From the NCBI GenBank assembly GCA_016213825.1, contig JACQZP010000005.1, positions 1 through 64,000 on the forward strand: 64,000 bases of DNA. The letters run 5' to 3'. Source of the DNA: Acetobacterium woodii (GTDB taxonomy: Bacteria > Bacillota > Clostridia > Eubacteriales > Eubacteriaceae). The notes under the pieces were generated by a model. The model was not told the origin of the DNA. It saw only the letters and a list, made by a program, of their open reading frames with translations, and ran no database searches. The number at the start of each line of letters is the position of its first letter. Position 1 is the first letter of the stretch. The translations under genes were made by a program, and so were the position numbers. Shown in pieces: positions 13,366 through 14,255 of the stretch.

Positions 13366-13650
13366 ATGGAAAGCAGTATACTGTCATTTTTAAGTCAGTT
13401 TGATGGTTTAACCATTGTTAAGGCAGCATCAGCTATTGGTGCCGGGTTAGCGATGATTGCGGGGATTGGGCCTGGTATTGGCCAGGGTTTTGCAGGTGGT
13501 AAAGCCGCCGAAGCGGTCGGAATGCGACCTGATTCACAAGGAGATATTATCAAAACCATGTTGATTGGTGCAGCGGTAGCTGAAACCTGTGGTATCTTTG
13601 GTTTGATTGTTGCATTGATTTTGCTTTTCGCAAATCCATTACTTGGTTAA
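13366..13650 (+). CDS. atpE1: ATP synthase Fo subunit c, copy 1
   Basis: The 94-residue protein is one helical hairpin. It carries the sodium-type signature: Gln40 in the first helix and Glu73-Thr74 in the second (AAVAETCG). It differs from the other two copies by an 11-residue longer N terminus ([11 protein letters not shown]...) and by MRPDS instead of RQPEA in the loop. In A. woodii the first c gene is described as a larger V-type-like protein with two hairpins, so a single-hairpin copy 1 is noteworthy. GGAGG stands ahead of the ATG. It is one of three tandem c genes. Confidence 0.93.
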
Positions 13651-13701
13651 GAGAATTAAAAAAAGCAGTTAAAAGAGCACTATAAAACTTAGGAGGAAAA
13701 A

Positions 13702-13953
13702 ATGGAAGGATTATTTATAATTAAAGCCGCATCAGCAATCGGCGCTGGTCTGGCAATGATCGCAGGAATCGGACCTGGTATTGGCCAGGGTTTTGCAGGT
13801 GGTAAAGCCGCCGAAGCAGTTGGACGTCAGCCAGAAGCACAAGGCGATATCATTAAAACCATGTTAATCGGCGCAGCGGTAGCTGAAACCTGTGGTATCT
13901 TTGGTTTGATTGTTGCATTGATTTTACTTTTCGCAAATCCATTACTTGGTTAA
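13702..13953 (+). CDS. atpE2: ATP synthase Fo subunit c, copy 2
   Basis: The 83-residue single-hairpin c subunit has Pro25, Gln29, Glu62 and Thr63, the residues expected for Na+ binding in acetogen-type rings. Its protein is identical to copy 3, although the DNA differs at many synonymous sites. The ribosome site and flank (ACTTAGGAGGAAAAA) are repeated before copy 3, showing that the gene was duplicated with its leader. Confidence 0.95.
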
Positions 13954-14003
13954 GAAAAATTAGCAAACAAGTACAAGATCGTTACAAAACTTAGGAGGAA
14001 AAA

Positions 14004-14255
14004 ATGGAAGGTTTATTTATTATTAAAGCTGCATCAGCAATCGGTGCTGGTTTGGCAATGATCGCAGGGATCGGACCTGGTATTGGCCAGGGTTTTGCTG
14101 GTGGTAAAGCTGCCGAAGCAGTTGGACGTCAACCAGAAGCACAGGGCGATATCATTAAAACCATGTTGATTGGTGCCGCTGTAGCTGAAACCTGTGGTAT
14201 TTTCGGATTGATCGTGGCATTGATTTTGCTTTTTGCAAACCCATTGCTTGGTTAA
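14004..14255 (+). CDS. atpE3: ATP synthase Fo subunit c, copy 3
   Basis: The 83-residue protein is identical to copy 2 and has the same Na+-type residues (Gln29, Glu62, Thr63). The distance from copy 2 to copy 3 is 302 bases start to start, including the repeated ribosome site. Identical products of two genes may serve to raise c-subunit dosage for the multi-copy ring. Confidence 0.95.

Follow-up and report, generated by a model that had tools for sequence, protein, structure and literature searches.

Mosaic c-subunit genes in an Acetobacterium F1FO ATP synthase operon point to gene conversion and a possible collapse of c1

The c-subunit genes of the window

The stretch of DNA analyzed here, referred to as the window, comprises 64,000 nucleotides (positions 1 to 64,000 of contig JACQZP010000005.1 in assembly GCA_016213825.1, deposited as Acetobacterium woodii) and includes an Acetobacterium-like F1FO ATP synthase operon with the open reading frame (ORF) order atpI-B-E1-E2-E3-F-H-A-G-D-C, in which three adjacent atpE genes encode the c subunits c1, c2, and c3 (table 1). 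Operon gene names are based on recognition of the ORFs, and only the c genes were identified by search; in the window genome (G000; 37 contigs, 3.94 Mb), PF00137 matched these three genes and one more gene on contig 15. A first-pass annotation, made from the DNA letters alone, had described the three genes as a mosaic triplication shaped by gene conversion. Its gene coordinates held, and translation confirmed that copies 2 and 3 encode identical proteins. We find that c1 and c2 are nearly identical only in the 3′ third, which encodes the second helix with the ion-binding Glu, and that this pattern very probably arose by gene conversion between c1 and c2 within the array, as judged from the comparisons given below.

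All three copies carry a Na+-type motif consisting of Gln in helix 1 (GQG) and Glu with Ser/Thr in helix 2 (ETC). Because Q....ET is described as the Na+ motif of c subunits in excerpts of PMC7911925, the three window proteins would by motif fit a Na+-type F1FO c subunit. The helix-2 motif reads ETCGIF at 13582-13599 and at the same codons of c2 and c3, whereas woodii-type c2 has ETTGIY, possibly a change at the Na+ site. For atpB, the ATG at 12670 is a more likely start than position 12661.

Table 1. Features of the atpB–atpE3 region in window coordinates
Feature	Position	Strand	Remark
atpB, subunit a	12661..13341	+	ORF; relative at 97% identity in a metagenome-assembled genome of Acetobacterium sp. 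(L054)
atpE1 (c1), 94 aa, one hairpin, Q....ET motif	13366..13650	+	Best PDB match 4bem_J "F1FO ATPASE C1 SUBUNIT"
c1-specific N-terminal extension	13366..13398	+	11 codons ahead of the point aligned with the c2 start
c1 portion mostly divergent from c2	13399..13569	+	Synonymous divergence (pS) 0.65, codons 2-52
c1 stretch identical to c2, 44 bases	13471-13514	+	Within the mostly divergent part, conserved core
c1 loop MRPDSQ, x-R-P as in last hairpins; c2 counterpart RQPEAQ	13522..13539	+	
Putative gene-conversion tract in c1	13570..13652	+	83 bases, 1 mismatch to c2
c2 leader (Shine-Dalgarno-like AGGAGG) and first 8 coding bases	13684..13709	+	26 bases identical to c3
atpE2 (c2), 83 aa, one hairpin	13702..13953	+	ORF
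c2 codons 55-57, TTA ATC GGC; c1 and c3 have TTG ATT GGT	13864..13872	+	
Counterpart of the putative conversion tract in c2	13873..13955	+	Alignment to the c1 tract
c3 leader and first 8 coding bases	13986..14011	+	Identical to c2
atpE3 (c3), 83 aa, protein identical to c2	14004..14255	+	ORF

Probable exchange between adjacent copies

Over 84 aligned codons the three genes differ at 54 sites, with 13 sites of the pattern c1=c2, 30 of c2=c3, 10 of c1=c3, and 1 with three states. As described earlier, in the first half of the genes c3 resembles c2, and c1 is distant from both. Across the final 81 bases, counting the stop codon, c1 and c2 differ at 1 site and c2 and c3 at 11, the counts reported in the first-pass annotation, and c1 and c3 differ at 10. 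The pattern classes are clustered along the genes, forming 21 runs versus 32.0 in shuffles when all sites are considered (p = 0.00065) and 16 runs versus 26.2 at silent sites (p = 0.0008); substitutions are thus not uniformly distributed, in keeping with the proposed patchwork. Individual fragments were evaluated by a GENECONV-like permutation using our own script rather than the program GENECONV, with 20000 site shuffles and p values calculated per pair, uncorrected for the three pairs. The longest c1=c2 run, seven sites in the 3′ tract, gives p = 0.00015 when all sites are used and p = 0.0028 with silent sites alone, and the scored c1=c2 fragment was equaled in 0 of 20000 shuffles at all sites, with p = 0.00035 at silent sites. 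Within the window alone, the c2=c3 fragment is not significant (p 0.10-0.54), nor is the c1=c3 fragment (13556-13570, three sites; p = 0.21 for all sites, 0.26-0.27 for silent sites), and the c1=c2 3′ tract is the only significant tract. The 44-base identity between c1 and c2 (table 1) contains just two c1=c2 sites.

The nonsignificant c1=c3 fragment is a block that had been proposed as a further transfer. At codons 56-57, ATT-GGT is present in all three copies of the nearest genome, G010, and in both copies of G003, G005, and G015, whereas window c2 has ATC-GGC. The likeness of c1 and c3 is therefore explained by a change in window copy 2, and we rejected the block as a conversion. Gene conversion as originally proposed is supported for the c1/c2 3′ tract and, across genomes, for the 5′ part of c2/c3, but not for c1/c3.

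G010, whose F1 genes have a synonymous divergence of 0.17 from those of the window, contains the same c1/c2 mosaic. In the window, pS between c1 and c2 is 0.65 in the 5′ part versus 0.19 in the 3′ part (Fisher p = 0.0009), and in G010 it is 0.65 versus 0.00 (0/21.2 sites; Fisher p = 1.6e-7), with rounded counts used in both tests. In the 3′ tract of G010, the paralogs c1 and c2 are closer to each other than either is to its ortholog in the window (pS 0.14 for c1 and 0.24 for c2), and codons 61 and 64 read GCA and TGC in both genes, whereas G010 c3 and all window copies have GCT and TGT. These observations support an exchange between c1 and c2 in the G010 line that would postdate the species split. 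Two points qualify this. The window value of 0.19 is no lower than the ortholog values, and one older event before the split would therefore suffice in the window line; TGC is also found in most copies of the outgroup genomes G003, G005, and G015, leaving GCA, from which the copies of these genomes differ, as the one clear shared change of G010 c1 and c2. In a tree of the C-terminal part, a single clade (100/97) unites c1 and c2 of the window with those of G010, separate from the even-numbered hairpins of multi-hairpin c1 proteins (100/99); this tree comprises 44 of 58 units, omits G008, G012, G015, and G017, has many weak inner branches, and its bootstrap is not settled.

A second regional effect becomes apparent when c2 and c3 are compared across genomes. 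Their pS in the 3′ part is 0.61 in the window and 0.47 in G010, and the contrast with the 5′ part is significant in each (Fisher p = 0.011 and 0.033, respectively). Sixteen genomes contain both genes, and in 13 of them the divergence between c2 and c3 is higher in the 3′ than in the 5′ part (means 0.39 vs. 0.22); the pooled Mantel-Haenszel z of 5.7 is overstated because the genomes are related. In these 16 genomes, paralogs are closer than orthologs both in the 5′ part (0.23 vs. 0.49-0.51) and in the 3′ part (0.42 vs. 0.55-0.57). In a woodii-like group of eight genomes, which was chosen after viewing the alignment, paralogs remain closer in the 5′ part (0.26 vs. 0.36-0.39) and are more distant in the 3′ part (0.52 vs. 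0.33-0.35), and of the 16 genes, 15 are closest to their counterpart in a different species when the 3′ part is compared, but 9 when the 5′ part is. Judged from these divergences, 5′ homogenization of c2 and c3 is general across genomes, and separate trans-species 3′ tails are shown only for the eight woodii-like genomes. The distinct tails span codons 52-80 in G001, G002, G004, G008, G011, G014, G016, and G018.

Three explanations other than gene conversion were weighed against the c1/c2 pattern. Unequal crossing-over could have made a chimeric c1/c2 copy, and tandem genes with long identical blocks invite such events in a genus in which c-gene number varies from 2 to 4; however, the window tract begins at codon 58 behind divergent sites and ends 2 bases beyond the stop, where the spacers behind c1 and c2 are unlike, and the corresponding identical run of 87 bases in G010 has both ends inside the gene. 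Being bounded on both sides, the tract is a patch rather than the product of one crossover. Because copy number and gene order are also unchanged between the two sister genomes and the refreshed G010 tract would require an additional event, we consider crossing-over without conversion improbable. Regional synonymous constraint, whether from codon bias or RNA structure, would involve no DNA exchange and fits the interspecies similarity of the c2 and c3 tails in the eight woodii-like genomes, yet it would have to act on all pairs, and the 3′ region is not equally conserved in all of them: pS for c1–c2 versus c2–c3 is 0.19 versus 0.61 in the window and 0.00 versus 0.47 in G010. Constraint cannot explain a region that is alike in one pair and divergent in the other, and we rejected it as having next to no likelihood. 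The same low standing is given to a short-read assembly collapse that mixed the copies, an idea prompted by the 37 contigs of the window genome and by the G017 contig that ends inside c3; it was rejected as the main cause, since G010 is a single 4.08-Mb contig and shows the same mosaic with differences of its own.

Hairpin number and the origin of c1

F-type c genes were found in 17 of 19 genomes of the genus and not in G006 (86% complete) or G009 (81% complete). Eight of the 17 encode a one-hairpin c1 (G000, G001, G004, G010, G011, G014, G016, and G017), four a two-hairpin c1 (G002, G007, G008, and G018), and two a four-hairpin c1 (G012 and G013), and c1 is absent in three (G003, G005, and G015). 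The c1 of G018 agrees with residues of 4bem_J in two stretches compared by eye; 4BEM belongs to the A. woodii Na+ F1FO ATP synthase, and on this basis we regard G018 as A. woodii itself or a close relative of it. The c1 proteins of G012 and G013 are 348 aa long with the carboxylate pattern E,Q,E,Q (L043 2652-3698; L044 2683-3729). Additional c-like genes elsewhere in two of the genomes are a 214-aa frame with two matches (L051, G010:C1:2134266-2134685) and a 98-aa frame (L050, G014:C79:120148-120336).

Multi-hairpin c proteins are also encoded outside the genus. A search of 67 genomes of the same order revealed three-hairpin proteins in G040, G041, and G042, a four-hairpin protein in G044, and two-hairpin proteins in G053 and G054, and the matches listed for a class-level search (245 genomes, E 1e-10) include a six-hairpin protein of 530 aa in G133 and three-hairpin proteins in G196 and G088. 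In G133, G196, and G088, the multi-hairpin frame is flanked by an atpB-like ORF on one side and by a single-hairpin c gene on the other; in G040, G041, G042, and G044, it precedes single-hairpin c genes. The carboxylate patterns vary: E,Q,E,Q,E,Q in G133 (L092, G133:C35:7500-12500, minus strand 1789-3381, then a single-hairpin c gene), in related genera, E,Q,Q,Q, with a single carboxylate for four hairpins, in G044 (L083, minus strand 2429-3469) and E,Q,Q in G040-G042 (L080-L082), and E,E,Q in G196 (L093, 1793-2629) and G088 (L094, 1665-2465), both on the minus strand. The two-hairpin proteins of G053 and G054 (L084, L085) have Glu in both hairpins, RQP loops, and no c1-like extension. With 1, 2, 3, 4, or 6 hairpins in relatives and an N-terminal extension of its own, c1 represents a separate, older lineage; the term triplication in the first-pass annotation is misleading, and a recent triplication was rejected.

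Window c1 shares with multi-hairpin c1 proteins the extension and the position directly behind atpB, and its matches to their first hairpins begin at query residue 5-7, within the extension. It differs from V-type-like c1 in having one hairpin rather than two or more and in reading AVAETCG, with the Glu kept rather than the carboxylate lost. In all 13 multi-hairpin c1 proteins used for comparison (6 from the genus, 7 from outside), the last hairpin reads AVAQTTG, and the x-R-P loop occurs in each of their last hairpins (13 of 13), in none of their first hairpins (0 of 13), and in none of the 42 c2-type units compared; G053, G054, and one G061 c gene are omitted from this comparison, and the internal class is short one G044 hairpin (3 of 4). 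In profile comparisons, the c1 proteins of G001, G004, and G011 prefer c1-type hairpins in the loop and core and c2 in the rest. On the strength of the extension and loop, we lean toward the view that window c1 collapsed from a multi-hairpin c1.

Several observations weigh against such a collapse. The c2 class gives the highest profile score for all segments of window c1, even for the loop (21.6 bits vs. 18.6 with last hairpins). The x-R-P loop is not exclusive to last hairpins, as the c2-type gene of G061 that lies outside the count reads RRPEAQ (L087, minus strand 2126-2437), and the 13 proteins do not include the two-hairpin proteins of G053 and G054, with Glu in both hairpins. Among relatives of the window pair, none turned up that has a multi-hairpin c1 in this operon lineage. 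In addition, the atp operon has probably moved between Acetobacterium lineages. Trees of the atp operon (window 12661-19291) conflict with the rpoB+recA tree: the F1 genes and a stretch of 700 bases ahead of c1, most of it atpB, group the window pair with G003, G005, and G015, all of which lack c1, whereas rpoB+recA places the pair among the woodii-like species, and in approximately unbiased tests each data set rejects the grouping of the other (p = 0.0011 and 2.9e-8; groups named after seeing the trees). Operon trees were therefore not used for counting state changes. On the rpoB+recA tree, no fewer than 4 changes are needed for the single or multiple state of c1 in the 14 genomes that have this gene, and no fewer than 6 for the four c1 states in 17 genomes.

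A competing explanation is that the single-hairpin c1 is ancestral, that multi-hairpin c1 proteins were built from it later, and that the window adds only ordinary c1–c2 conversion. It is favored by the profile scores, all of which are best with single-hairpin c2-type proteins, and by the loop of the G061 gene. On the other side, odd- and even-numbered hairpins each form one genus-wide clade (99/97 and 100/99, in the C-part tree with its weak inner branches), and multi-hairpin c1 proteins exist outside the genus, with matches that start in the window c1 extension, so the hairpin duplication seems older than the genus. A two-hairpin c1 is also described for C. aceticum in excerpts of PMC7911925, and the explanation has to accommodate the four changes of single and multiple states on the rpoB+recA tree. 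We regard an ancestral single-hairpin c1 as unlikely, although less so than unequal crossing-over.

The account that we consider likely as a whole combines conversion in the array with a collapse of c1 that took its 3′ part from c2. The atpE1-E2-E3 array would evolve by ectopic gene conversion between adjacent copies, and c1 would descend from a multi-hairpin, V-type-like c1. Recombination within the array would have reduced this protein to one hairpin while the N-terminal extension and a last-hairpin-like loop were kept, and c2 would have donated the 3′ part with the second helix, hence Glu where last hairpins have Gln. As a consequence, all three window c subunits would have one binding site per hairpin.

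Comparison with known systems and implications

The window array resembles atpE1-E2-E3 of the Na+ F1FO ATP synthase of A. woodii in gene order, the Q....ET motif, identical c2 and c3 proteins, and the N-terminal extension of c1. However, A. woodii-type c1 (G018) is a two-hairpin protein whose second hairpin lacks a carboxylate, whereas window c1 has a single hairpin with a carboxylate. The atpE1/atpE2 genes of C. aceticum, as presented in excerpts of PMC7911925, likewise belong to a Na+ enzyme with c1 and c2 genes and the Q....ET motif but encode a two-hairpin c1 and a single c2. A distinct c-ring configuration is stated for the A. bakii F1FO ATP synthase in PMC6239172, and a single-hairpin c1 may therefore be partly known; the passages of this article give no hairpin counts. 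According to the available parts of PMC6053082, long-lasting concerted evolution in prokaryotes involves 26 genes, often encoding complex subunits, in which recurrent conversion keeps paralogs alike, as in the window, where unlike in those genes only a region of a short gene is affected. The main text of that article does not mention ATP synthase, ATPase, or atpE. Neither conversion among Acetobacterium atpE genes nor F-type c subunits of at least three hairpins are reported in the titles and abstract openings of the literature matches listed.

Although the mechanism, gene conversion, is ordinary, its setting is above average in that the hairpin number of a rotor gene shifts between close relatives. 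For phylogenetics this brings a caution, as atpE trees mix different histories along a 250-base gene. For the enzyme, the composition of the c ring sets the ion cost of ATP. The A. woodii ring has 11 hairpins. It contains 10 Na+ sites according to excerpts of PMC7793690, and if the ring encoded in the window has the same number of hairpins, it would have one extra Na+ site, and its Na+/ATP ratio would be slightly raised. Tentatively, tandem c genes could serve as a recombination workshop that resizes a rotor protein, in which some hairpins have Gln instead of the carboxylate and c2 can restore the binding residue by conversion; in more than one Acetobacterium lineage, recombination among neighboring genes, and not point mutation, might then have changed the ion/ATP gear ratio. 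The genus provides a natural series in which c1 is absent or has 1, 2, or 4 hairpins, to which other Clostridia add 3 and 6, and such a series among close relatives makes the origin and possible reversion of V-type rotor subunits testable by comparison.
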